Shown here piece by piece: positions 1,725-24,024 of a stretch of 31,325 nt of DNA (positions are counted from its first letter, which is position 1; each line of letters begins with the position of its first letter). The translations under genes and the position numbers were made by a program. The stretch comes from a virus, in the IMG/VR virus record IMGVR_UViG_3300045996_000489, positions 1-31,325 of that record; one strand, written 5' to 3'. The notes beneath the pieces were generated by a model, which ran no database searches, had not been told where the DNA came from, and saw nothing but the letters and a program-made list of their open reading frames with translations.

Positions 1725-3464
1725 CTACTTCGGCTTCATCTGCGCGAAGCTGTTGATTACAGGGGCAACGTGCTTCGCCCACCCACCCGGCGCGTTCTTA
1801 TTGCCCAGTTCCCAAGCCGCTGAGCCATTCGTGGCCGCCTGCCGCCCCTGCTGTGTTTGCTGCCGGTTCGTCAGGAGGTTCTGGTTGTTCTGCTGCGCCT
1901 GCCCGCCTTGGTACTGCTGCTGGCCGGTGTAATAGTTCCGCGTTTCCGCCTGCCCCGTCCGTCGCGCATCCGCGATACCCCGGCTCGTGTCAGCAAGAGT
2001 CGCGTTCACTTGATACCCGCGATTGAACTGGTTGCCCTGATTCGCGAACCCCACGCCCTGCCGGTTGGTGGCGATCCCCGCTGCACGGTCAGCTTTGGCC
2101 GCTTCCGCATCGCGCGTGGCCCCGTACGCCATCGACTGATTAAATTTCCCGGCGTCCGCTGCCCGTCCCGCCCAATCCCGCTCTGTGCCAAGATTGGCGT
2201 CCGTCGTGTACATGGCGTTCTGCTGGCCCATCTGCCCCAGTTGCGAAGCTGCCCCGAGCCGACGATTGGAGATATCGCGCGTCGAGTTGAGGCGCATGTT
2301 CTCCTTGTTCGTCTCGGCGTCGATTGCCATGTTGCCGAGATCCATACCGGCGCCCATCTGCGCGTTGGTTTTGTACCGCTCCGCCCCGAGGCGCGTGTTC
2401 TCGACTCCGGTTGCGGCGTCACGCTGCTGCGCCCTCGCGGCCAGTTTTAGTTGCCCTACCGCATCTGCCTGCCCGACGGCGTTCTGGTCCTCGAACTGAG
2501 AGCGCATGGCCGCTACGGCAAGCGGGCTCGCATTCCCCGAAGCAGCCGCCTGCCGCTCAAGATCCTGCACGGCGGAGCGATACTTCGCGCCAAGCGCCTG
2601 CCCGCCTATTGCGGCGGTGTCCTCAACCTCTTGATCCGACATCCCCGCTTGGCGGCCATACTCGCCGCTCATGTCGAGGTCTTTGTTCGTCGCGGCGCCC
2701 CACACCTTGTCGCCCGTGACGTTCTGAATATTGCTGAGATCGTCCTGGTACCGGCCCGAGAGCTTCAGGTCCTCGCCGATGGCTCCGTTCAGACTGTCCT
2801 TCGTGACGTCGTAGTTCTGGTTCAGCTTGTCCTGTGCGTTGTCGATGTAGCCCCGCGAAGCGTTGAACGCCGTCGTGTTCGTGTCGTTCAGGATGTTCGG
2901 GTTGAGTTCGTTCCGCGCCGCGTACGGATCGCCCCGCATCTCTTCCTGCTCTTGCGGGGTGAGGAAGTTCGATCCGTAATCGACATTCAGGAGGTCACGG
3001 AAGTTATTGCCGCCGTCCGGGCGATTACCCATCTGCGCGTCAATCTCTTCCTGCGAGTAGCCGGGGGTCTGTTCCAGTTGCCCGTAAAGCTGGTTCGACT
3101 TCAGCGCGGCGGCGTTTTCCAGTCCAAGGCGGCGACTCGACTCCCCGCCGAAGTACTGCTGGAACATGTCGCCTTGGTTCTGCTCTGTATTCCGATTGTT
3201 TTGGAACTGTTTGGCGATGTCTGTGCCGTCGTAGTACGGAACAGATGAAGGCGGAAGACTGGAGATTGGCGAGCCAGAGATGGAGCGACTGTAGAAGTCT
3301 TCGTAGCTCGTGTCGGGGAGTCCACCCGTGGGGCTGGCGTTGGGTTGGTAGGGTGAGGCTGGTTCGGTGGGTTGGCCGTAATCGACGGCGTAGCCCTCTT
3401 CTTCAGGAATGGCCGGCTGGTATCGCCGCGCCTTGGACGTTGGTTCTGGGGTAGAGCGTGCCAT
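1725..3464 (-). CDS. Q/N/A-rich structural protein, putative internal virion protein
   Basis: 579 aa. The start is an ATG with a strong GGGAGG ribosome site 4 bases upstream. Residues 1-80 are Pro/Ser/Tyr-rich and look disordered. The remainder is rich in Gln, Asn, Ala and Arg and is predicted helical, with loosely repeated LGAxxxxxxNxxM patterns around residues 350-480 and a very Gln-rich tail (about 505-550). No enzyme motif, signal peptide or membrane segment is visible. It lies between a 78-aa gene and the large partial virion gene and is probably co-transcribed with the latter (10-base gap). Composition and position fit a DNA-ejection or internal core protein. No named family is recognised. 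Confidence 0.8.
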   Translation of the reverse strand: MARSTPEPTSKARRYQPAIPEEEGYAVDYGQPTEPASPYQPNASPTGGLPDTSYEDFYSRSISGSPISSLPPSSVPYYDGTDIAKQFQNNRNTEQNQGDMFQQYFGGESSRRLGLENAAALKSNQLYGQLEQTPGYSQEEIDAQMGNRPDGGNNFRDLLNVDYGSNFLTPQEQEEMRGDPYAARNELNPNILNDTNTTAFNASRGYIDNAQDKLNQNYDVTKDSLNGAIGEDLKLSGRYQDDLSNIQNVTGDKVWGAATNKDLDMSGEYGRQAGMSDQEVEDTAAIGGQALGAKYRSAVQDLERQAAASGNASPLAVAAMRSQFEDQNAVGQADAVGQLKLAARAQQRDAATGVENTRLGAERYKTNAQMGAGMDLGNMAIDAETNKENMRLNSTRDISNRRLGAASQLGQMGQQNAMYTTDANLGTERDWAGRAADAGKFNQSMAYGATRDAEAAKADRAAGIATNRQGVGFANQGNQFNRGYQVNATLADTSRGIADARRTGQAETRNYYTGQQQYQGGQAQQNNQNLLTNRQQTQQGRQAATNGSAAWELGNKNAPGGWAKHVAPVINSFAQMKPK

Positions 3465-4369: not shown

Positions 4370-4726
4370 ATGAAATGGCTTTTACTGCTGTTGATGGTCG
4401 CCGCGCCGATGCTGCCCGCCGCATCCTGGGACGGCACACATGGAGACTTGACCGTCATGACCATGATGCCGCCGCCGAGCGTGCCTGGACTGCCGGGAAT
4501 CGTGGTCTATAGGGTAACCCAGATTTTCGTGCGCTCAACGGACGAGACAGTTGTCGCATACCGCGTGGCAATTCAGGTTAATGGGAAACCTGCCATGACG
4601 TACATCGCAGAGAAGTTGCCTCGCGGATACATGAGCGTGGCGCTTTTCTTTAACGTGGACATCAGCGAGATCAAATCGGTGGCGATCACCAAACTGCACG
4701 ACGGCGAAACTACCACCATAAATTAA
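4370..4726 (+). CDS. Secreted small protein on the opposite strand (moron candidate)
   Basis: 118 aa, the only supported plus-strand gene. The first 19 residues are a textbook Sec signal peptide: Lys2, then a Leu-rich core (WLLLLLMVAAPML), then a Pro-Ala-Ala-Ser cleavage region. The mature part of about 99 aa has alternating hydrophobic residues typical of beta strands (VVYRVTQIFVRS, VVAYRVAIQVNG), no cysteines and no transmembrane segment. It converges on the tail-fibre gene, and the two stop codons overlap within a TTAA. A single gene with its own promoter-like sequence, antisense to a structural operon and coding for an exported protein, is what a lysogenic-conversion moron looks like. That role is inferred and no family is recognised. 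Confidence 0.65.
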   Translation: MKWLLLLLMVAAPMLPAASWDGTHGDLTVMTMMPPPSVPGLPGIVVYRVTQIFVRSTDETVVAYRVAIQVNGKPAMTYIAEKLPRGYMSVALFFNVDISEIKSVAITKLHDGETTTIN

Positions 4727-6179: not shown

Positions 6180-7430
6180 CTACCTTCGGCCCCGCAGGGA
6201 AAACATCGAGGGGAGGAGAGACATCCCCCCAACCGGCTGCATATTCGGCTTGGGTGCAGGTGGAGGAGGAGGGGCCAGCGGGGTATCTAGGATAGCAACG
6301 GGATCTCCCGGCCCCACCAGCTTCGCCAACTCCGCCATATCGCTATTCCTCAACTGAACGCAGCCCTGTGTAGTGGTTTTCCAACTTGTGTCGTGCCCCT
6401 TTTGCCACTCTTTTATGTCCTGCGCATTAGGCTCATCAGCCCCAGAATTTCGGTACTTCCAGCCGTGGAATCCGTAATACTGATCTTTCTCGCCGGGATG
6501 TACGTCTTTCGCAAAGCTAATGAACCCTGGTCCGTAATACCACTCAAAGTTGGCGTCCAAATTTTCCATCACCCTATACTGCCCACGGGGAGTTGGCGTC
6601 TTGGCGTTGCCTATGTAAACCGAATACTCTCGCAAAACCTCACCCTTGGGGCCACGAACGACTATTTTTTTGTCCGGGATACTCACAACGACGGTATTCC
6701 CTGACCGCCTTTCTGGCTTCAGCATTGGTGAATGTGGGTAGTTAAGTGCTTTGCTGACATTCGACACCGTTGCCTTCGCCTGCGGCTTCGGGGTAGCCGA
6801 GGTCGCCCGCGCGGGGGCCTTCGCTGACGGCGCAGCACCAGCCAGAGCATGGGGGAGCGATTTTGCCACATCCATCCCAACTGCGTGATATACATCACCC
6901 ACTGGTTTCTGCATGACTGCCGGAATATCCGCAGGGTTTAGCGGTGGGATCGATGGCGCATCAGGCAAAACGATTGGCTGGTCGGGTGTCTCTGTAGTTG
7001 GAATTGCCGGTGGCTTAAACGGACGCGGAGGCAGTTTGATCGGGGCGTCCGTCACTTGTCCACCAATCTCTGATCCAATAGAACTACGCGGGAGTGGTTC
7101 GGGTATCGGAGCAGGCGGGAACTCGAACGGCTTCTCGGCGCTAGCGGGCGGGAGTGGGCTTGGTGTATACGGACGCGAAAGCCGTGACTCCACAGGCGAC
7201 TGGTGATAGGCGAGAGTGTCGGATTTCCCAGTAATGGCTACCGAGTATGGCGAAAAGTCGTCCGACTTGGTGATTTCCTGTTGTCTGGGAAGTGGTCCGT
7301 CAGCCTGTGGACTGTCCAGCGTTGACGAAACGGGCGCGCTCCAATACGGAACTGGATCAGCATTGGCTGATACCGTGACTGGATCGGTCTTGATTCGAAG
7401 GCGTTCGCCTGCGGTGATATAGGGCCTCAT
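6180..7430 (-). CDS. YkuD-type L,D-transpeptidase domain protein in the virion module
   Basis: 416 aa from the ATG that overlaps the upstream stop (ATGA at 7427-7430); an upstream in-frame extension exists but lacks support. Residues 1-240 are a Pro/Ser/Ala-rich, probably disordered arm without a signal peptide. Residues about 245-382 form a YkuD domain: a strand start (NTVVVSIPDKKIVV), TPTPRGQYRV, a His-Gly (YGFHGWKYRNS, His322) and the catalytic Cys in TTTQGCVQLRNSD (Cys357). The Arg usually following Gly-Cys-Val/Ile is Gln here, with an Arg two residues later. YkuD enzymes form or exchange 3-3 cross-links in peptidoglycan or attach proteins to it. Lying between the hub-like protein and the fibre, it is likely virion-borne and acts on the wall during entry. 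It is not a normal endolysin. Confidence 0.85.
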   Translation of the reverse strand: MRPYITAGERLRIKTDPVTVSANADPVPYWSAPVSSTLDSPQADGPLPRQQEITKSDDFSPYSVAITGKSDTLAYHQSPVESRLSRPYTPSPLPPASAEKPFEFPPAPIPEPLPRSSIGSEIGGQVTDAPIKLPPRPFKPPAIPTTETPDQPIVLPDAPSIPPLNPADIPAVMQKPVGDVYHAVGMDVAKSLPHALAGAAPSAKAPARATSATPKPQAKATVSNVSKALNYPHSPMLKPERRSGNTVVVSIPDKKIVVRGPKGEVLREYSVYIGNAKTPTPRGQYRVMENLDANFEWYYGPGFISFAKDVHPGEKDQYYGFHGWKYRNSGADEPNAQDIKEWQKGHDTSWKTTTQGCVQLRNSDMAELAKLVGPGDPVAILDTPLAPPPPPAPKPNMQPVGGMSLLPSMFSLRGRR

Positions 7431-9418
7431 CTCTGAACCACCCACTCGTCCGAATAGAACACCTCTAAGCCCGCCAGCTTGAACCACGCATCTGCCACAC
7501 CGTTATTGCTGAACTCCAGGAAAGCCCCCTCACTCTGCACGTCACAAAGTACGAGTGGAAACTTCCCAGGAGCCGTACTCGCAGTGATCGTTGCGAGCAC
7601 ATGCGACCTCGTGTTGTCCAGCGTGTACACGGTCGGGATGATTGACCCGTTGCCGGTGATCCGGGGGCGGAATCCATGGATCTGCCGAGGCTCCGGTGAA
7701 GCGGGGGGAAGCCCGGCAGTGCGGTACCGACTGAGGTATCCCGCGCCGTTGTCGTTGTAAATGCTCACGTCACCAGCGGCAGCGCTCTTGGACCTGAAGA
7801 CGGCGCCTGCGGAATACCTGCTCAGGTAGATTTCGAACACCTTCGCCGTCGGGTTCCAAACATTTGCGATGGCCCCAATGTTGGCGAATGCGGTCGAGTC
7901 CCACAGCCCGCAGTAGTTCACGCGATTCCACGCGCGACCCTGCGAGTAATCCCATGCCAGCATTGCATTTGCCGAGGATGCACCGTCGAGAGGGACCTTA
8001 ACGAGCACGATCTTAGCAGCGGGAAAATCGAGGACCTGGACCGTGCCTTGTGCTGCGGCCCAGTTTATGCGGGACCAGTCAGCAGAGTTGAGGTAGGAGA
8101 TGGGCAGCGTGCCGTAAGCGCCCCCCTCGAAGACGTACAAGCCGTCAGTGGCGGCGACAAAGGCATAGCCGAGCGACGAATTGGCGCAAACGCCGAACAC
8201 CGACGGCGTTCCAATGCGCCCATCCACTTGCTGTGGGGGCGCCCACGATACAGGAAGACTGGTATTGTCGCTGCACGCATACGTCCAGCCAGGCCCGACG
8301 AGATACAGCGAGCCACGGAGGACGAATCCCGTCGTGATCTGCCGCTTTTCTTCTAGCTGAATCAGGTGGTTTGCGAGAGTGATCCATTGGGGCGCATTCT
8401 TGTTCGACACGAACACTCCGCTCGTGCCATCGGAGAGCGTGGCGAAATAGACCGCTCTGTCCGAGTATCCCAAAACCTTGAACGGCGAAAACGGCCCGTT
8501 TCCGCTGGCGTCCTGTGAGTACAACCCGAAATAGTTCTTAGCTGCGGTGACAGCCTCAACGGAGGACGATGATCCCAAGATGGCGTCGTTTAGGTTGATG
8601 TCCGGGAATGTCACTGTGCCCGCTCCGCCACCCGTGACGGCCGCCGTGCAACCCGGAACGAAGAAGTACCGCGCGTTGTTCTGCACTGTGGTCATCAGCA
8701 ACGCGGCGGAAACGAAGTTCGTCGGCCATGTTCCGCTAGGGGTAATCTGGACCCGCAGCGTCTTATTGCCAGAAGCCGTGACGCTGCCGGCCACGAGATC
8801 GGCGATCGATCCCGACGAACCGAAGCCAGCCGTAACCGGACAAGGCCGCGTCTCGTATCCCGTGCGCGTCGTGAAAACGACGGCGAGCTTGTGGACACCC
8901 TTAGAAACCGTGCCAGCCGCAGGCTCAGACGTCGAGAACGACATCGCCGTGCTCGCCATTGGGGGCTCGAAGGCTTTATCCGCAGAAGCGGGAGCGGTCA
9001 CACCATCCCAGATACGGGCTTGTGCCGCCCCTGCCCCTGCGGAGGTGATCTGCGCGAAGAGGAGGCGGGCGCCGAGCGAGGCGAAATCCGCAGTCTCGGC
9101 AGTGCTGCCAGTGAGGATGTCTACCTCGGTCCCCGCCGTGAGGTTGCGGAGCGTTACGATGCCGTCAGTCTTATTGAAGTAGGCAATCCGATTCGCCGCC
9201 GCGAGAATCCAGTTGAACATCGACGTGATGCCCTTGTTTGGATTCCATGCCGCGCCGAACCCACGTCGTCCCTGAACCTGTGCGTCCAACTGGATCTCGA
9301 CGTTGTGCGCGAGTTCCGCGAAGTCTTCAATGCCGGATTTATCAAATTGATCCGGGAGACTAGCCGCCCCCCGGATCTTGCTTAGAACAAAGCGCTGGCA
9401 CTCAGCGATAAGCGACAC
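7427..9418 (-). CDS. Large structural protein, probable tail hub/nozzle
   Basis: 663 aa from a GTG at 9418 that has AGGAG (9425-9429) 6 bases upstream; a longer frame to 9556 would run deep into the upstream gene. The N-terminal 45 residues are helical (LIAECQRFVLSKIRG). The rest is rich in short beta strands with repeated aromatic/Gly turns (GVFVSNKNAPQWITL, LVGPGWTYACSD, GLYVFEGGAYGTLPISYL) of the kind seen in beta-propeller tail hubs such as P22 gp10 and T7 gp12. It ends in a beta domain (DAWFKLAGLEVFYSDEW). It overlaps the transpeptidase gene by 4 bases. Fold and role are inferred from pattern and gene order. Confidence 0.8.
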   Translation of the reverse strand: MSLIAECQRFVLSKIRGAASLPDQFDKSGIEDFAELAHNVEIQLDAQVQGRRGFGAAWNPNKGITSMFNWILAAANRIAYFNKTDGIVTLRNLTAGTEVDILTGSTAETADFASLGARLLFAQITSAGAGAAQARIWDGVTAPASADKAFEPPMASTAMSFSTSEPAAGTVSKGVHKLAVVFTTRTGYETRPCPVTAGFGSSGSIADLVAGSVTASGNKTLRVQITPSGTWPTNFVSAALLMTTVQNNARYFFVPGCTAAVTGGGAGTVTFPDINLNDAILGSSSSVEAVTAAKNYFGLYSQDASGNGPFSPFKVLGYSDRAVYFATLSDGTSGVFVSNKNAPQWITLANHLIQLEEKRQITTGFVLRGSLYLVGPGWTYACSDNTSLPVSWAPPQQVDGRIGTPSVFGVCANSSLGYAFVAATDGLYVFEGGAYGTLPISYLNSADWSRINWAAAQGTVQVLDFPAAKIVLVKVPLDGASSANAMLAWDYSQGRAWNRVNYCGLWDSTAFANIGAIANVWNPTAKVFEIYLSRYSAGAVFRSKSAAAGDVSIYNDNGAGYLSRYRTAGLPPASPEPRQIHGFRPRITGNGSIIPTVYTLDNTRSHVLATITASTAPGKFPLVLCDVQSEGAFLEFSNNGVADAWFKLAGLEVFYSDEWVVQR

Positions 9419-9429
9419 GGGCCGCTCCT

Positions 9430-10014
9430 TTACAGGATCGTTACCGCGCCAACGTTCGGCAGCACCGTGTAGAAAACGGTGTAGGTCGTTTCGGTGAGCG
9501 AACCTGTCGGTTGAAGTTTGACCGTTGCTTTCCCTGTGCCCGTGACGAAAGTCCACGAGAGCGTCAGAGTCCCCGAAGAAACAGCCTTGGCGTCGGTCGT
9601 AGCGAGGTCCGTGATGGCGAGGGTCTTAGTCCCCGCCTTGTCCACCGCCGCGTAGTTCACGGTTACCTGCATAGCCTGATGGTCCGTGCCGTCCGAGGCA
9701 AAGATCGTAGCGAAAATCGTCCCCCCGCAATAGGAGTCATTGGCGAGGGCAACGTCAAAGAGCGAGGTGGCAGATCCATCGACAATCGTCTTGGCGACGA
9801 CATTGAAGACTGCGCGACCGCCCGCCACGACAGTTGAGTCGGTAGCGTCAGCCTTAATGAGCGGCACTACACCCGTACCTGCGGCGTTGATCGACTCCAG
9901 GGATTCGTTGCTAATAAGATCGGGCGGCTTCTCCAGGCGCACATCGGCGTCAGGGACGACTTTCCAGAACTTTAAGGCCGCTCGTGAAGTGGGGCGAAGG
10001 CGTTGTCCTGCCAT
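9430..10014 (-). CDS. Beta-rich structural protein of the head-tail module
   Basis: 194 aa from the ATG at 10014, preceded by AAAGGG; an ATG at 10035 adds seven residues but has no ribosome site. The N-terminal 35 residues are basic with a Trp (ALKFWKVVPDADV). After that the protein is built of Thr/Val/Ala strands (TVVAGGRAVFNVVAKTIV, QVTVNYAAV, TLTLSWTFVTGTGK), consistent with an immunoglobulin-like or jelly-roll virion protein. It is followed after 11 bases by the hub-like gene. It could be a head decoration or tail accessory protein. No family is recognised. Confidence 0.75.
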   Translation of the reverse strand: MAGQRLRPTSRAALKFWKVVPDADVRLEKPPDLISNESLESINAAGTGVVPLIKADATDSTVVAGGRAVFNVVAKTIVDGSATSLFDVALANDSYCGGTIFATIFASDGTDHQAMQVTVNYAAVDKAGTKTLAITDLATTDAKAVSSGTLTLSWTFVTGTGKATVKLQPTGSLTETTYTVFYTVLPNVGAVTIL

Positions 10015-11569: not shown

Positions 11570-12424
11570 CTACTTCGTCGCCCCCTGTTGCCCCGCCTTC
11601 TCTGCCCGCATCTTGGCGTTATTCGCCTCGATCCGCGCCTTCTGATCGCGTTGGAACGCGAACACGCCGGGATCGACGTCTTCCGTCACTTCCATGCCGA
11701 TGTCGCGGTAGAACTTCACGAGGTTCTGATCGCAGTGTTTGCACACCGTCGCCATCGAGTTGATGTCCTCGTAGCACGCCGGGCACTTCTTGAGCAGCAC
11801 CGTGTCGATCTTCTTGTACCACTCGCGGTCTTCCGACCCGAGCCAGCGGAGCGCCCGACGGTGGTCGTTGGTGATGAACTCCCGCTTGCCGGTGATCCAG
11901 TACTCGTCGGCCTTCATGACGAGCCAGCGGAAGTACTCCGTCTGGACAGCGACGAGTTGGTCCAGTTCGAACCGCGTGGGCTTCTCACCCTGGAGCACCA
12001 TGATCCCCGGCTTCGCACCGCTGGCGTTCCCCGGGGCGTCCTGCGCCCACTGGCGCAACAGGTCTTCCGCCACGCCGTAACAGTGGACCGGCGACTGTTG
12101 CATGTCGTAGGCGTTCGGGTCGGTCGGGTCATTGCCCGCGCCGGCAGCCTTCGACAGATCCCGCGTCAGGGTGAAGGTGTCGTATACCTTCAGCAGCGCG
12201 TAGCTACCCTTCGGGACTGCGGGAATCCGATACTCCTTGCGCCCGCCACCGTGGTTCATGATGTGGCGCAACTCCTCCGGGAAGATCGAACAGAGGGTGA
12301 CGTTGTTCGGGATGTAAGGCCGACCACCCGTAAACGGGTTGGGCATGAATACGTCGGCTTCGACGGTGATGCAGTTTTCCAGCGGGATCGAGGAAGCGGG
12401 CTGCTCCAAGACGTTTGTGCTCAT
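11570..12424 (-). CDS. Zinc-ribbon-containing head-module protein
   Basis: 284 aa, start overlapping the upstream stop (ATGA). Residues 1-205 are mixed alpha/beta with several Trp/Tyr-rich helices (VQTEYFRWLVMKADEYWITG). A zinc ribbon follows: Cys214-P-A-Cys217, ten residues, then Cys228-K-H-Cys231. The C-terminus is a charged helix (DQKARIEANNAKMRAEKAG). It lies between the capsid gene and the neck-like gene and is probably a virion or assembly protein. A small zinc ribbon near the C-terminus could bind DNA or another protein. No named family is recognised. Confidence 0.75.
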   Translation of the reverse strand: MSTNVLEQPASSIPLENCITVEADVFMPNPFTGGRPYIPNNVTLCSIFPEELRHIMNHGGGRKEYRIPAVPKGSYALLKVYDTFTLTRDLSKAAGAGNDPTDPNAYDMQQSPVHCYGVAEDLLRQWAQDAPGNASGAKPGIMVLQGEKPTRFELDQLVAVQTEYFRWLVMKADEYWITGKREFITNDHRRALRWLGSEDREWYKKIDTVLLKKCPACYEDINSMATVCKHCDQNLVKFYRDIGMEVTEDVDPGVFAFQRDQKARIEANNAKMRAEKAGQQGATK

Positions 12425-13094: not shown

Positions 13095-13472
13095 TTACTT
13101 CGCGTGCGTGCCCTCAACGCCGCGCTTGATCCGCGCCACAGTGCGCCGCTGGAGCCACATTAGGGCATCTTCGCAGTGCGTGAGCGCGATGGCGTTCTCG
13201 CGGCAGGAGAACGGCCCCGCCTGGAACGACCGCAGCCGGTCGATCACGATGGCGAGCAGCGCCTCCTGCGTGATACCGTTGACGCCGAATTCTTTGATCG
13301 GGCCGTTCTGGAACGAGATGCGCAGCGCATTCAGCGCCTTTTCCCCGTCAACGGCGCAGGTCGAAACCTCATACTCGTGGTTCGCTCCGCCCGCTCCCGG
13401 CTCATCCAAAACAGCTACATGCAACTGCACGGCTTGGTCGCCGCTTACAATGTGATCCGATAATGTTCTCAA
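13095..13472 (-). CDS. Acb2/Tad1-like cyclic-nucleotide sponge (anti-CBASS/anti-Thoeris candidate)
   Basis: 125 aa from a TTG at 13472, chosen because AAAGGTGG lies 7 bases upstream; the upstream frame extension overlaps the capsid gene and a hairpin. Residues 17-56 are beta-like (NHEYEVSTCAVD, LRISFQNG). The conserved block I-S-F-Q-N-G-P-I-K-E-x-G-V-N-G-I-T (52-68) follows, then a helical hairpin (EALLAIVIDRLRSFQAG, FSCRENAIALTHCEDALMWL) and a closing RRTVARIKRGVEGTH. I recognise this layout from small phage proteins assigned to the Acb2/Tad1 hairpin group, which sequester immune cyclic nucleotides (CBASS cyclic oligonucleotides, Thoeris gcADPR). The family call is from memory, and ligand choice cannot be read from sequence. 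It sits between the capsid gene and the next head gene. Confidence 0.7.
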   Translation of the reverse strand: MRTLSDHIVSGDQAVQLHVAVLDEPGAGGANHEYEVSTCAVDGEKALNALRISFQNGPIKEFGVNGITQEALLAIVIDRLRSFQAGPFSCRENAIALTHCEDALMWLQRRTVARIKRGVEGTHAK

Positions 13473-13494
13473 AGCAAAACCACCTTTCAAAATC

Positions 13495-13526
13495 AGGGGC
13501 GGCCCCGGAGGATTTGGACCGCCCCT
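13495..13526 (-). terminator. GC-rich hairpin between capsid and sponge-like genes
   Basis: AGGGGCGG (13495-13502) pairs with CCGCCCCT (13519-13526), 8 bp, with possible further pairing inside. On the transcribed strand it is followed by GATTTTG, a short U-rich run. It lies 14 bases after the capsid stop and 23 bases before the TTG start. It could be a leaky terminator that lowers expression after the abundant capsid message, or a 3'-end stabiliser. Confidence 0.45.
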
Positions 13527-13539
13527 GCCCTTACGGGGA

Positions 13540-14904
13540 TTACCAGCCAGTTGGCACAGCCAAACTGTCAATTACTCCATCGGCCCCCGGATCAAGAGAT
13601 CCGAAGTCATACGACGCCTCGACAAAGAACTCCGTGAACGACTGCACCGTACCATCGGTGCCGCGTCCCTCGAAGAACTTGCTGCCCGAGTTCGCGTCGG
13701 TGTAGAAGCGAATCGGATGGAGCTCGGCGCGGAACCACTTCGGAAGGTTCAGGAAGTCGATCTTCGCCTTGTCCTGCCGCTTAGAGATCAGGAGCGGGAT
13801 GCCGCAGAACCGCACCTCGTCCTTGTAGCCGTGGTTCGTCGGCAGCAGATCCTTGCCCTTGCCAGCGTCGGTCGCGCCCCGGTCGATGAACACGTTGTTG
13901 ATCGTGGTCCCGAGCTTCTGGATCGCCGCCCGCTGCGCCATGTGCGTGACGCCGAGCAGATCGTCGCCGGAGCTGATCGTGCGCCGCTGGATGAGTTGGT
14001 CGATCATCAACTGGCCGTGATCGAAGGTGACACCGCCGGACGACCCGTTGACACGCGAGCAGTTGATCTGCGGGACGCTCGAACGGAGCACGCCGAGGTA
14101 GTAGTCCGTGCCGGTGATGGAGTGGACATAGCCCATTCCGTGCCGGTAGGAGTCGCCGCCGATGCCGCCCGCAACCGTCTTGTCGGGCCAGGTAGAGGCG
14201 AACGAGGTCGGGGTCGCCGGGCCGTAGGACTCCAGACCCACGATCGTAATCACGTTGGTCTGCGAGTTCATGCCGGTGACGGCCTGATCCACCGTGACGG
14301 TCTTCGCCGTGTAGTCGATGGAGTTGATGCGGACATTGGTCATCGCCGCAGTGAGGTTGACGGACAGATCCGACTTCCACACATCCACGACCATGCCCTC
14401 GCGCAGGAGGTTGACGCCGAGCGTGTCGCTGGCGCCGGCGAACGTCAGAACGGTGGTCGTCTGGGCGCTCGAAGCATTCGTGAGCACGCCCGTGCCGTTC
14501 TGGTGCAGCGCGATATCGTCATCGATCATCGCGTCATCGATCGCGTGCGCCACGGTTTCGCTGAGCACGTCGATGGTGGACTGAGCGGAACTGCCGCTCG
14601 TGTTCTGCTGCTCGCGGGTCACCCGGTACCCACGGTAGGTCGTGATGTAACCCGCCGTGAAGTTGCCGAGCACCATGCCGGTGCCCTTGCCGAGCGAAGC
14701 GCTGTTGGCGCTGGCCTTCCGGAGCGAACCGCCACGGAAGCGCATGTACGGAGCGCGGTACAGATACCGCGAAACGTTCTTGACCTTCGAAGACTTCTTG
14801 ACGCGAGCAGAAAGCTGGTCGGACTCCTCGAACAGGAGCTGCATTTCCTTTTCGACCACTTCCAACTGCGCCGGGGTGATATCGGTAATGGCTGGACTTG
14901 CCAC
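13540..14904 (-). CDS. Major capsid protein
   Basis: 454 aa from a GTG at 14904 with GAGGA 8 bases upstream. The N-terminal helical region (ITPAQLEVVEKEMQLLFEES) precedes an HK97-fold-like body: an arm with RAPYMRFRGGSLRKA, then helix-rich and strand-rich parts (ETVAHAIDDAMIDDDIAL, LMIDQLIQRRTISSGDD, FIDRGATD) and a C-terminal beta part (FFEGRGTDGTVQSFTEFFVEA). Residues about 165-215 look like a small beta insertion domain (VVDVWKSDLSVN, KTVTVDQAVTG). Position after portal and scaffold-like genes, and length, support the coat assignment. HK97-fold membership is an inference from gene order and pattern. Confidence 0.85.
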   Translation of the reverse strand: MASPAITDITPAQLEVVEKEMQLLFEESDQLSARVKKSSKVKNVSRYLYRAPYMRFRGGSLRKASANSASLGKGTGMVLGNFTAGYITTYRGYRVTREQQNTSGSSAQSTIDVLSETVAHAIDDAMIDDDIALHQNGTGVLTNASSAQTTTVLTFAGASDTLGVNLLREGMVVDVWKSDLSVNLTAAMTNVRINSIDYTAKTVTVDQAVTGMNSQTNVITIVGLESYGPATPTSFASTWPDKTVAGGIGGDSYRHGMGYVHSITGTDYYLGVLRSSVPQINCSRVNGSSGGVTFDHGQLMIDQLIQRRTISSGDDLLGVTHMAQRAAIQKLGTTINNVFIDRGATDAGKGKDLLPTNHGYKDEVRFCGIPLLISKRQDKAKIDFLNLPKWFRAELHPIRFYTDANSGSKFFEGRGTDGTVQSFTEFFVEASYDFGSLDPGADGVIDSLAVPTGW

Positions 14905-16533: not shown

Positions 16534-16535
16534 CT
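16518..16535 (-). terminator. Hairpin overlapping the portal stop codon
   Basis: On the minus strand AGCTGGG (16529-16535) pairs with CCCAACT (16518-16524), 7 bp including one G-T, with a 4-base loop. Only a pyrimidine-rich TACTCTCTCC follows, not a T-run. The next promoter-like region begins just beyond it. Possible terminator of the portal unit. Confidence 0.35.
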
Positions 16536-19071
16536 ACTGAATCGTCCCCGGAGGCGGGCCGACAGGCATCGCGTTAGGGGGCGGTGCGGTCATGCCCGCC
16601 TGATTCGGTGGAGGGGGAGCGACGATGCCCTTCTCGTCAGGTGGCGGGGCATTCGGTCCTTCTGGCGGTGGAGGCCCGCCCGGTCCACCTTCAGGTGGCA
16701 TTGGCGGAGGCGGCGGGTTCGCAATGAGCATCCACGCCTGCGTGTAGGCGAGAACATTCTCAAACCCCCCAGGCGACTGATCTGGCAGTAGCCCCTGCTC
16801 GGCTTCCCGCCCCTTGTCGCTTACCAGCCAATCGCGGAGCACGGCCACGGCGAATGGAGCGTCGAATATGGTTGTATTCGGCGCGATCGATGGCTGCGGT
16901 GGAGGCGGCGGACCAGGAGGCAGCGGATTGCCCATCGGGTCGAACTCCTGCATGGGCGCCTGCTCCATCGGCTCGCCCTTGACCAACTGCCCGATGATGT
17001 CGAGTAACCGTTCGCGAGCGGCGAGTCCTGGCACCTGCCAATCCGGCAAGCCTACGGCATCCTGCAACTGCTCCACGTTCGCGGGCAGCGGGTTGCCAGC
17101 GGGGTCGGTGAGCCCCAACAGGGGCCACGCCTGCGGAGGACGGGACAGCATGGACTCCACCTGTTCCTGCCTTTGAGCCCACGTCATCGGCATCGCTTCT
17201 TCGCACTCGATCTCGATCCCGCCCTGCCCGAGTTCCCAGATGCCGTCCAACTCTTCCAGTTCAATCACGCCACCGCGATTCATGACGAGCTTCCCGTTGG
17301 AGTACTGCGCGAGTAGCCGAATCCCGTTCTGGTACGTGTTGCTCCAGAAGTCCCGCATGTAGTTCCACGGCACGTTCAGTTGCATGAGCGACTGATTACG
17401 CCGGATTTTCGCAACGCCGACCGCCTCGTCGGCATCCCCTCCGCCGTAGATCGCCGGCATGATCCCGACGTTCTCTCGGTTCTTTTCGATGTAGAACTCC
17501 ATGAACTTCAGGAGCGATTCGTTCAACTCGCTGCCGGAGATGCGGAAGAAACTCTGCGAGAGTTGACTACCCACGCCCCGCTTGCCTTCCAGGAACTCGC
17601 CGGTCTGGACGGCCCGGTTGCGGAGGTAATCCGGGTCCACGATGTCGGGATCGAAGAACGTGATCGGGTTCGACTTCTCAGCCTGTTGAATCAGCATATT
17701 CAGGCAGTCGTTCACCACATCGACGCCCTGAATATAGTCGTCAAACACCGCATCCCGGTAGATGAAGTCGCCGGTATCCGGCTGACAGACAGTCCACCGC
17801 TCGGGGATGGAGGCTCCCCGGATATCCGCGAGTTTCCCACCGACGTAGATCAGGTGCAACCCCTTCGGGTACTTCGCCTGCAACTGCTCTCGGACATCCC
17901 CCGACTTGTCGTCATCGGCCGACATCGCCTCCAGCATTCCGGGGGATAGGAAGTACTGCCCGAAAGATGCCAGCGACTTACGCTCAAACGGCTCGCCCGT
18001 GGGGGAGGACAGCGTATTGGTCGTTCGCCGGATCTCAGCGGTACTGGCACCGCCCGCCATCGCTCCGGACGTTGTGTCCGTCAACAGGTGCCCACGCAAC
18101 TCCGTCCGGAACTGCGCCTCTGGCGAATTGTCGCCCTGCTTCGGAGCTGGCGCGTAGGCGCGGACCAGTTCATAGCGATTGACGAGGTATTCGTACCACA
18201 GCCACGGGCAGTGCTCCAGGTCCGCGATGTAGTACGGCGTTTTGACCGTCGCGCCCGTCGCAAGCTGAAGCTCAACTGCGCCGTTGGCATAGCGCTGCAC
18301 CGATGTCTGCACCAGGCCCGGAACCATCTCCGGTTCGCGGTAGTCTTCCGGCCCAAGCGGAAACTCGCATTGCGCGCACCGCTGCGTCTGTTGCGCCGTC
18401 ATCAGCGGATTTTCCGTCCCGCATTTGGCGCATACGAAATACGCCTCGCCAGCAGGGACCAGTTTCGTCTCGATCTTCGGGACTTCCGTGACGCCGTACT
18501 TCTTCTCGTCGGCGACGAAGTTGACGTAGCCGAACGTGGTACCGTTCACCGCCAGCGAATACGCGAGGTACCGCTGAAGGTTATCGGCTTTCCATGAGTT
18601 TCGTAGGTAGGAAACAGCGCGATCTCCGATGCGCGAGAGCCTGATTTGGTGGTCATCCCCGACCGTGCGGGGTTCACACTTTGCGTTTGGCGACCTGACG
18701 CCCAGGACACCGCACCATTTCCGAACATCCCCACGAAACAGCGGCAAGATGTTGTCATACATCTCGTCCTGCTGACCTTGCTGCGGAGAGAATGGAGCCA
18801 TTCCCCCACCGCTCACCGGGCGATAGTCCACAGAGCCATCCGGCAACTTGACCATCGTCAAATACTGCATTCCCCGGTAGTACAGATTGTTTCGACGGAT
18901 GCGCGCGAACACCTTTGACTGCTCCGGGTCGGACTCCGCCCGGATCTTCGTCTGAATGAGGTTCGCCAGCGCAACATTGACCTTGCTGTCGGGCTTGAGG
19001 ATCTGCGCCTTCGTGATCGCCTGCCGCGTCACGTCAAGGATGCCGGGGGCGTTCGGTGGTTGTGGGCTCAT
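16534..19071 (-). CDS. Portal protein with zinc-ribbon insertion
   Basis: 845 aa, start overlapping the upstream stop by 4 bases. The helical N-terminus leads to a body with portal-like features: FARIRRNNLYYRGMQYL, a substrate-facing middle with DAVFDDYIQGVDVVNDCLN, a long helical stem (ELNESLLKFMEFYIEKNRENVG) and NRGGVIELEELDGIWE. An unusual zinc ribbon is inserted at residues 214-235 (Cys-x2-Cys, 14 residues, Cys-x2-Cys). The last 60 residues are Pro/Gly-rich. It is long for a portal (P22 gp1 is 725 aa). Position between terminase and scaffold/coat supports the call. Confidence 0.85.
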   Translation of the reverse strand: MSPQPPNAPGILDVTRQAITKAQILKPDSKVNVALANLIQTKIRAESDPEQSKVFARIRRNNLYYRGMQYLTMVKLPDGSVDYRPVSGGGMAPFSPQQGQQDEMYDNILPLFRGDVRKWCGVLGVRSPNAKCEPRTVGDDHQIRLSRIGDRAVSYLRNSWKADNLQRYLAYSLAVNGTTFGYVNFVADEKKYGVTEVPKIETKLVPAGEAYFVCAKCGTENPLMTAQQTQRCAQCEFPLGPEDYREPEMVPGLVQTSVQRYANGAVELQLATGATVKTPYYIADLEHCPWLWYEYLVNRYELVRAYAPAPKQGDNSPEAQFRTELRGHLLTDTTSGAMAGGASTAEIRRTTNTLSSPTGEPFERKSLASFGQYFLSPGMLEAMSADDDKSGDVREQLQAKYPKGLHLIYVGGKLADIRGASIPERWTVCQPDTGDFIYRDAVFDDYIQGVDVVNDCLNMLIQQAEKSNPITFFDPDIVDPDYLRNRAVQTGEFLEGKRGVGSQLSQSFFRISGSELNESLLKFMEFYIEKNRENVGIMPAIYGGGDADEAVGVAKIRRNQSLMQLNVPWNYMRDFWSNTYQNGIRLLAQYSNGKLVMNRGGVIELEELDGIWELGQGGIEIECEEAMPMTWAQRQEQVESMLSRPPQAWPLLGLTDPAGNPLPANVEQLQDAVGLPDWQVPGLAARERLLDIIGQLVKGEPMEQAPMQEFDPMGNPLPPGPPPPPQPSIAPNTTIFDAPFAVAVLRDWLVSDKGREAEQGLLPDQSPGGFENVLAYTQAWMLIANPPPPPMPPEGGPGGPPPPEGPNAPPPDEKGIVAPPPPNQAGMTAPPPNAMPVGPPPGTIQ

Positions 19072-21940: not shown

Positions 21941-24024
21941 GACTGCGGGCCGGCGATCAACCCCTTAACCCGAGCGCGGGCCATCCGGCCTTGCCGAATC
22001 ACGTGAATGGGCTTGAGTTTGGCCGCGTTGCGGTCCTTCCACGCGGACTCGATACGGCGGTTGACCCAAACCAGATCGGCGGTGTCGTAGCCCGGGTTCC
22101 GCTGCTGCGCCTCCGCGACCTTCCGGCGCCGCAGAGCCTCGAAAGGTTCCGGCATGGACTGGCCCCGGAATGTCATCAGGAGATACCGCAAAGAGTCTAG
22201 GCTATCCAGCCCTGAAAAATGCTTTCGGCTCACATCCTCCGGATTCAGGTCGTCATGCTGTGCCTTCGGAATTGACGCGATCAGGCGGGGGCATCCGAGC
22301 TGCTGCGTAGAATCGGGGCGACCGTGCTGGTCGAGCGGCGGGCCGACAACCTGGAGTTTCGGCAGTACCTCGCGCTTCTGTTTGAATAGATTGAGGTATG
22401 CTCCGTATGCCTCCAGCCCCTTCTCGTAGGCAATCTTCGAAGCCAAGTTCGGATCGAAAATGTCCTTGATATCCGGCATCGTCTGCCGCCACCGCATCAT
22501 CGCCCGAACCAACTGCCAGCCAACGACGCGGTTGTCACGCATTCGGCGGATTGTGATGCCCATGCGCTGCTGCGATCGAATCCTCTGGAAAATCGCATCG
22601 GCCTCGCCGGAAGCGGTGGAATGCCCCTCCGCCTCCATCTGATCTTTCAGTTTGTCCACCATCAGGTCTGGGACGTGAACCATATTTGGCCCCAAGACGC
22701 GGGCTATGCCCCGGGCAATCAATTCCGCTACGGATCGGTCGTCCTGCCGGTGCCCGTAGGCGTCGTGCGACAACCCCATCGAGATCATGGGTGTCTCCAG
22801 CCCCGCCAAGATGCTTTTGGTTCGGCGGCCGACCTCTTCGCCTATAATGTCGGGCTCCGTCTCGCTGACCACCAGCTCATCCGTCACCCAAAACTGGTCA
22901 GTCTCTTGATCGTGGCAGCCCCAAACGGTCGAGCATTCGTGCGAATAGCCGTAGTCCATCGCCATTGTGCGCCACCACCACGGCTGAATCCGGTTTCTCG
23001 CGATATTGAACGGGACAACGTGATTGGCCTCTGGGGGCTCGCCGGGCTTCGGTCCCCTTGGCCTCCATGAGGCGAAAAATTCGCCCGACATCGCGTGCCA
23101 ATCCCCGAATAAGTACGCCCGCCGCTCCTCTTCATCGAGCGTCATCAGGCTGGCGATGTATTCTTTGTTGGACAGAGCCGCCGGATTGTCCTTGATGGAG
23201 GAGAACAAGAAAACCCGCGTAGACTCGATCACCTCTCCGGGGACGAACGGGTTCTCAAATTTTTCGATGATCGGCGTACCCGGGGGGATAATATTACCGT
23301 GCTCGTCAGTCGGTTCTACGTAGCGGTCCAGCACCCACCCGTGACCAGGGCCTCCGGGGTTGCACGTCGAGAGCATCTGGGCGCGCATCTCCGGGTACAC
23401 TGACCGGCAGCACGACTTCAGCATCTTCAGGCGCTTGATGTCCGGGATCTGCGTCACCTCTTCAAGCAGAAACCGGACAATGTTCATGCCCTGATACTTC
23501 ATGTAGGCGTTGTCTTCATCGTAGTGCCCGCAGAAGATCATCGCCCCGCCCGGGAACTCGAAACGGTTCTTGCCCTCCTTGAAGTCCCCGCCAATCAGCC
23601 CGTAGATCTCCTTCGCCTCACGCACCCAGTCAAGCAGATCCGTTGCGTTTCGCCGAATGACGCAGCCGAGGTATTTGGGGTGGTAGATGTAGCTGCGGTT
23701 AACGAGAATAGGGTTCCCGTCTTTGTCGTAATCCGGGAATGGGCATGCGCAGGGTAGCGCCTTGTGTGCAGGGCAATCGTCGGCATGGGCATTCCCTTTG
23801 ATAAGGAAATAGATCCCCGAAATCGTCTTGCCGCCAGCCTTTGCGCCGCCGATACAAATCTCGTGCTCATTGCGCAGTAGGGTCTGCACCTGCTTCGGCC
23901 AAAGCTGCCGCACTGGCTGATTCGCGGCCTTATCACCAGCCCTCTGGCGCAGGCGCTCGAACTCCTCCGGCGTCAGCACCATCCCGACGGGCTTTTTGAC
24001 TTCGGCTTGTTTTTTGGCTGCCAT
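21937..24024 (-). CDS. terL: Terminase large subunit
   Basis: 695 aa. The ATPase domain shows Walker A GGAKAGGKT (residues 59-67), Walker B FLLEE (185-189) and a coupling motif around STCNPGGPGHGW (219-230). The C-terminal nuclease domain begins around MAMDYGYSH (Asp357), with a second acidic site near SHDAYGH (Asp421). Between Walker A and B is an insertion with Cys84, His87, Cys92 and Cys94 that may hold a metal. It uses ATP to drive DNA into the portal and cuts concatemers. It starts 8 bases after the stop of a 59-aa overlapping ORF, with a poor ribosome site, so translation is probably coupled. Confidence 0.95.
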   Translation of the reverse strand: MAAKKQAEVKKPVGMVLTPEEFERLRQRAGDKAANQPVRQLWPKQVQTLLRNEHEICIGGAKAGGKTISGIYFLIKGNAHADDCPAHKALPCACPFPDYDKDGNPILVNRSYIYHPKYLGCVIRRNATDLLDWVREAKEIYGLIGGDFKEGKNRFEFPGGAMIFCGHYDEDNAYMKYQGMNIVRFLLEEVTQIPDIKRLKMLKSCCRSVYPEMRAQMLSTCNPGGPGHGWVLDRYVEPTDEHGNIIPPGTPIIEKFENPFVPGEVIESTRVFLFSSIKDNPAALSNKEYIASLMTLDEEERRAYLFGDWHAMSGEFFASWRPRGPKPGEPPEANHVVPFNIARNRIQPWWWRTMAMDYGYSHECSTVWGCHDQETDQFWVTDELVVSETEPDIIGEEVGRRTKSILAGLETPMISMGLSHDAYGHRQDDRSVAELIARGIARVLGPNMVHVPDLMVDKLKDQMEAEGHSTASGEADAIFQRIRSQQRMGITIRRMRDNRVVGWQLVRAMMRWRQTMPDIKDIFDPNLASKIAYEKGLEAYGAYLNLFKQKREVLPKLQVVGPPLDQHGRPDSTQQLGCPRLIASIPKAQHDDLNPEDVSRKHFSGLDSLDSLRYLLMTFRGQSMPEPFEALRRRKVAEAQQRNPGYDTADLVWVNRRIESAWKDRNAAKLKPIHVIRQGRMARARVKGLIAGPQS

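Follow-up and report, generated by a model that had tools for sequence, protein, structure and literature searches.

The phage DNA analysed here encodes a protein of 416 residues in which a YkuD (L,D-transpeptidase fold) domain follows a long Pro-rich arm, and which may best be read as a wall enzyme of the tail tip, with the arm as a tether and the domain cutting or trimming stem peptides rather than cross-linking them (probability about 0.42). From the sequence and the gene order, we infer that the protein is present in the virion, that the arm tethers it, that the domain is active, and that the reaction runs towards hydrolysis. The window corresponds to an entire IMG/VR record (31,325 bases, linear, probably a fragment), in which nearly all long genes lie on the minus strand. 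The features concerned are listed in Table 1.

Table 1. Coordinates in the window of the YkuD-domain protein gene, its parts, and the virion genes discussed in the text.
Feature	Position	Strand	Basis or remark
Ejection-protein-like gene	1725..3464	minus	Further downstream of the YkuD gene; position and composition as the matching genes of G005 and G011
Fibre-like gene, 482 aa	4723..6171	minus	Directly downstream of the YkuD gene; judged by position and composition, with a single weak tblastn hit (E 3e-2) to a gene for a tail fibre
YkuD-domain protein gene, 416 aa	6180..7430	minus	ATG at 7430; open reading frame and ATGA overlap with upstream stop; Pfam YkuD
Pro-rich C-terminal tail, residues 385-416	6183..6278	minus	Pro 30% in residues 384-416
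YkuD (L,D-transpeptidase fold) domain, residues 246-380	6291..6695	minus	PF03734, 56-58 bits
Gln359 codon, replacing Arg of transpeptidases	6354..6356	minus	Two residues after Cys357
Catalytic Cys357 codon	6360..6362	minus	Invariant column, 35-row alignment
Enlarged loop IV, residues 324-356	6363..6461	minus	Between His and Cys
Catalytic His322 codon	6465..6467	minus	Invariant column, 35-row alignment
Eight-residue insertion, loop III, residues 309-316	6483..6506	minus	Ahead of catalytic His; pairwise alignment with B. subtilis YkuD
Pro-rich N-terminal arm, residues 1-238 (about 235)	6717..7430	minus	Pro content, high TOP-IDP mean, hydrophobic segment absent
Conserved virion gene ("hub")	7427..9433	minus	Directly upstream of the YkuD gene; homologues at the corresponding position of G011 (1.9e-20) and G005 (1e-12)
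Terminase large subunit	24024-21937	minus	phrog_979, E 2.9e-29

The match to PF03734 is far above chance (E = 7.4e-15; 56.2 bits against a cut-off of 23.4) and takes in positions 3-146 of the 146 of the profile, so that the domain proposed in the sequence-only reading is present as a whole. The invariant columns of the 35-row alignment include His322, Gly323, Gly356, and Cys357, and the catalytic His322 and Cys357 are thereby confirmed at the positions claimed, as is Gly323. The motifs YGFHG, GC, and LRNSD are kept in the domain, while the remainder is about 30% identical to its relatives. In its whole-domain match and in the retained His-Gly and Gly-Cys pairs, the protein is like the YkuD family (B. 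subtilis YkuD, E. coli LdtB, LdtD, and LdtE, and short acidobacterial enzymes). It is unlike this family in having Gln for Arg, loops enlarged by eight and 19 residues, a Pro-rich arm, and a tail-module context, and in the absence of a signal peptide.

The substitution of Gln for the usual Arg after Gly-Cys-Val, also remarked on in the sequence-only reading, holds as Gln359. Arg occupies the position two residues after Cys in 34 of the 34 aligned relatives, rows that were partly selected with a pattern permitting Arg or Gln. In a second sample taken without pattern selection (the YkuD domains of four bacterial genomes and five acidobacterial hits), Arg is found in all correctly read domains; the script returned nothing for L287 and read L264 and L288 incorrectly, the motif of L264 being SHGCIRM. 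E. coli LdtB, LdtE, and LdtD likewise have Arg at this position, and DpaA has Ala. This Arg is present in YkuD enzymes with transpeptidase activity and absent in DpaA-like amidases and carboxypeptidases (PMC8263019); by this mark the window domain does not qualify as an L,D-transpeptidase. A working transpeptidase, which would covalently join a tail or other phage protein to the wall or seal the entry site with 3-3 links, would be in keeping with the close relatives, all of which are of the transpeptidase type, and with the attachment of Lpp to the wall by LdtA-C (PMC8263019). The loss of the Arg of transpeptidases, however, speaks against such an activity, which is judged improbable.

The domain also differs in the loops around the catalytic His. 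The insertion of eight residues relative to B. subtilis YkuD is stable across three gap penalties; its exact site is uncertain, because MAFFT and tblastn put the gap elsewhere. Loop IV is longer than the B. subtilis YkuD segment by 19 residues, and the step from His to Cys is 35, compared with 16-19 in the controls, 8 in DpaA, and 16 in Csd6. The published spacing of the YkuD motif is H(S/G/D)X14-19C (PMC4599014), and 33 residues separate Gly323 and Cys357 in the window domain, the long His-Cys loop of which resembles neither transpeptidases nor hydrolases. A catalytically dead domain, retained as the peptidoglycan-binding tip of a tail protein, would agree with this aberrant spacing, the lost Arg, and a long branch in the tree, but His, Gly, and Cys and the three motifs named above are kept despite the low identity elsewhere, and a dead domain therefore appears quite improbable.

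On the other side of the catalytic His lies loop III, whose length in YkuD hydrolases exceeds that in transpeptidases (PMC10653827, PMC4599014). The two features of the Csd6 and Pgp2 carboxypeptidases, a missing Arg and a long loop III, are both found in the window domain (Gln359; eight residues before His, with a gap position that depends on the aligner). In these respects it is like the YkuD hydrolases, namely the amidase DpaA/YafK and the L,D-carboxypeptidases Csd6 and Pgp2 (PMC8263019, PMC10653827, PMC4599014). It is unlike them in having Gln rather than Ala or Asn and in its His-Cys step, and it lacks the Trp two residues before His that belongs to the D-Ala pocket of Csd6-type carboxypeptidases, having Gly320 instead. 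Membership in the DpaA/YafK group was rejected on the grounds of Gln against Ala or Asn, a step of 35 against 8, and a tree in which the window domain is not joined with DpaA (both branches are long).

Ahead of the domain, Pro makes up 18.7% of residues 1-230, and the arm is probably disordered, as judged from its composition. No hydrophobic 15-residue window starts in the first 60 residues (maximum Kyte-Doolittle value 0.22), and therefore a signal peptide is not apparent. Both the long Pro-rich arm and the missing signal peptide of the sequence-only reading are thus upheld. An alternative GTG start at 7487 would lengthen the protein by 19 residues. The ATG start lies inside the stop codon of the upstream conserved virion gene (ATGA).

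In the order of transcription, the window carries the terminase, a pectate-lyase-like spike, the portal, a scaffold-like gene, the major capsid gene, small genes, an adaptor-like gene, the hub, the YkuD gene, the fibre-like gene, and two ejection-like genes, several of these names being given by order and by homology to relatives, without family matches. "Hub" is a name by position, because the hub profile matches no solved structure; the hub homologue of one relative matches phrog_3287, 'virion structural protein'. The identification of the 482-residue downstream product as fibre-like is weakly supported, and no family match was found for the ejection-protein-like gene at 1725-3464. The claimed placement of the YkuD gene in the virion module is borne out by synteny with relatives. 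Its placement between hub and fibre genes stands as to position, the identity of the hub being positional and that of the fibre gene weakly supported.

Several other genes of the window may be mentioned. The gene at 13095-13571 (minus), which adjoins the capsid gene, matches the Acb2/Tad1 hairpin domain PF24729 (28.3 bits; cut-off 27) and phrog_2428 (1e-34), and its product is possibly an anti-CBASS or anti-Thoeris nucleotide sponge, as judged from these matches. On the opposite (plus) strand, between the fibre-like and ejection-like genes, 4370-4726 encodes a protein of 118 residues with a clear signal peptide and no family match. The protein at the portal position (16534-19071, minus) contains a CxxC...CxxC stretch of zinc-ribbon-like look, and there is a weak match to a double zinc ribbon in the gene at 11570-12424.

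Viral contigs yielded no matches when the complete YkuD protein, the YkuD domain by itself, the terminase, or the capsid served as a single query; relatives were found by a terminase alignment scan, then a portal search, and then a capsid alignment scan. The terminase and portal searches yielded two relatives, G005 and G011, of 48.6 and 49.0 kb. Common to the relatives, and in the same order, are the terminase (1.6e-40, G005), portal (7e-21, G005), capsid (1e-40, G005), and hub (1.9e-20, G011). The capsid alignment scan gave 80 related loci of 309 confirmed, and the hub gene was recognised in 50 of these; the capsid of one relative matches 'major head protein'. This large uncultured phage group (L181-L260, L096, and L104), with genomes of ~45-49 kb, has 309 confirmed capsid relatives in IMG/VR, and its portal, capsid, and hub are almost without a GenBank phage match.

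In the relatives, the genes that follow the hub form a variable tail module, with collagen repeats in 8 of 130 scanned proteins and many tail-fibre families. In most of 42 loci, the first post-hub genes have in common a short motif at the N-terminus of their products that is perhaps a tail anchor. When this motif was sought in the window proteins, including the YkuD protein and its neighbour, nothing significant was found. In G011 (L177-L179), a radical SAM-type gene lies within the tail module (post-hub, ~22048-23196). The tail-tip reading is favoured by the start-stop overlap with a conserved virion gene, by the tail-fibre character of the post-hub stretch in relatives, by the absence of a signal peptide, and by the completeness of the YkuD domain with His322, Gly323, and Cys357; it is weakened by the lack of the post-hub N-terminal motif in the YkuD protein.

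The main rival to the tail-tip reading is a lysis enzyme of the endolysin type, made late, remaining outside the virion, and released by a holin into the periplasm. The absence of a signal peptide suits this role as well, and no other wall enzyme was recognised in the window, although the record is a fragment and an endolysin may lie beyond it. The lysis role is also kept in play because three relatives (L191, L227/G090, and G011) have small M15 peptidases, of the endolysin type, in the module behind the hub. These proteins, however, are compact (107-128 residues) and are not directly behind the hub, whereas the YkuD protein has an arm of 235 residues and the start of its gene overlaps the stop of the hub gene. 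Moreover, no holin or spanin was recognised beside the YkuD gene in the window, which is a fragment. A lysis enzyme is considered less likely than a tail-tip enzyme.

No YkuD gene was found in the 81 capsid-related records, and it is absent from 49 of the 50 records of the terminase-derived set, the exception, L005, having been recruited through the YkuD scan; many of the records searched are fragments. The GC3 of the YkuD gene (0.573) is the lowest of the genes measured, compared with 0.69-0.86 in the named structural genes and the exonuclease and 0.615 in one small non-structural gene. The absence from relatives and the low GC3 point to acquisition of the gene in this phage lineage. They would also suit a cargo (moron) gene, recently inserted into the tail operon, modifying the wall of the infected host and taking no part in entry or lysis, as would the secreted-type L,D-transpeptidase gene in the structural module of L005. 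That gene, however, keeps a signal peptide, which the window gene is without, and the arm and the overlapping start suggest that the window gene has been adapted to the tail operon; a moron is the least probable of the rivals considered here.

In L005 (IMGVR_UViG_2838214910) the gene, at 2402-3373, lies between the terminase and scaffold-like genes, in the expected place of the portal. As the sole viral contig from the YkuD scan, L005 was rejected as a counterpart of the window gene, its enzyme being of the secreted type with a signal peptide. Searches at tblastn sensitivity revealed no tail-module YkuD protein in 50,697 GenBank phage records, none was found in the literature searched, and no relative of the whole 416-residue protein was found. 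Among GenBank phage records, the YkuD hits discarded were those in CAKLQF/CAKLQH (among host metabolic genes), MK416017 (flanking host ErfK gene), and MT836940 (bacterial-looking record); L045, with 56% identity across 32 residues, was rejected as a chromosomal gene.

In the tree, the nearest rows are short acidobacterial enzymes (support 93/78, long branch), a join partly weakened by the recruitment of these rows with the window domain itself. With the window domain as the query, matches were obtained in 5 of 297 Acidobacteriota genomes at E 1e-6, and in 1 of 200 Gemmatimonadota and 0 of 299 Pseudomonadota genomes at E 1e-5. These results give a weak hint of an acidobacterial source or host for the gene.

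In carrying a wall enzyme domain on a longer protein among tail genes, the window protein is like the virion-associated peptidoglycan hydrolases of tailed phages, and its gene is likewise encoded in a tail or virion module, as indicated by the ATGA overlap with the hub gene and by synteny. To our knowledge, known enzymes of this class use glycosidase, amidase, or peptidase folds. YkuD is already known, if rare, in phage lytic proteins: there are 10 such PhaLP entries, and one gut endolysin combines GH25, choline-binding, and YkuD domains (PMC8310338, PMC13284279). Unlike these lytic proteins and endolysins, the window protein is a single-domain arm-YkuD form in a tail module, a form not described there.

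The nearest functional parallel, by analogy of fold and delivery, is Tlde1a, a type VI YkuD enzyme with tail-like delivery that trims and exchanges stem peptides (PMC9638812). Tlde1a shares with the window protein the YkuD fold, altered active-site loops and, if the tail-tip reading holds, delivery to the wall by a tail-like machine (PMC9638812); unlike the window protein, Tlde1a has a short step (His121-Cys131), is a toxin in bacterial rivalry, and has an immunity protein. This precedent for tail-like delivery of a YkuD enzyme further favours the tail-tip reading (PMC9638812).

Under the tail-tip reading, the Pro-rich arm would tie the enzyme flexibly to the tail. The C-terminal domain, in this view acquired from a bacterial L,D-transpeptidase, would act on stem peptides at the point of contact between tail and wall. 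There, Cys357 would attack the bond after the third residue to form an acyl-enzyme. Because the groove Arg is replaced by Gln and the entrance loops are enlarged, water would be more likely than a second stem peptide to release this intermediate. The outcome would be cutting or trimming of the L,D-carboxypeptidase, 3-3 endopeptidase, or wall-protein amidase type. The hydrolytic direction is favoured by Gln359, in place of an Arg that is also missing in DpaA, Csd6, and Pgp2, and by the longer, hydrolase-like loop III; it is weakened by Gly320 in place of the Csd6-type Trp and by a His-Cys loop unlike that of either class. It also counts against the tail-tip reading that trimming by itself would not open the wall. 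Three roles had been offered initially: opening 3-3 linked wall, anchoring the tail, and sealing the entry site. The lost Arg and the longer loop III favour cutting over anchoring or sealing.

Tailed phages cut wall glycans and common stem-peptide links during entry. 3-3 links and wall-bound proteins occur in many bacteria, and we know of no described phage entry enzyme that targets either. It is a tentative and somewhat doubtful extension of the tail-tip reading, suggested by the sequence features, that a remodelled L,D-transpeptidase fold on a long flexible arm, lacking the groove Arg and bearing an enlarged lid between His and Cys, opens or releases the wall at the entry site by acting on 3-3 links or wall-bound proteins, as a virion counterpart of the tail-delivered YkuD effectors. 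If this is true, a virion enzyme of the YkuD fold would be a further route through the wall and a link between phage tails and the type VI YkuD effectors, and the altered motif would provide a natural test of what converts a transpeptidase into a hydrolase.
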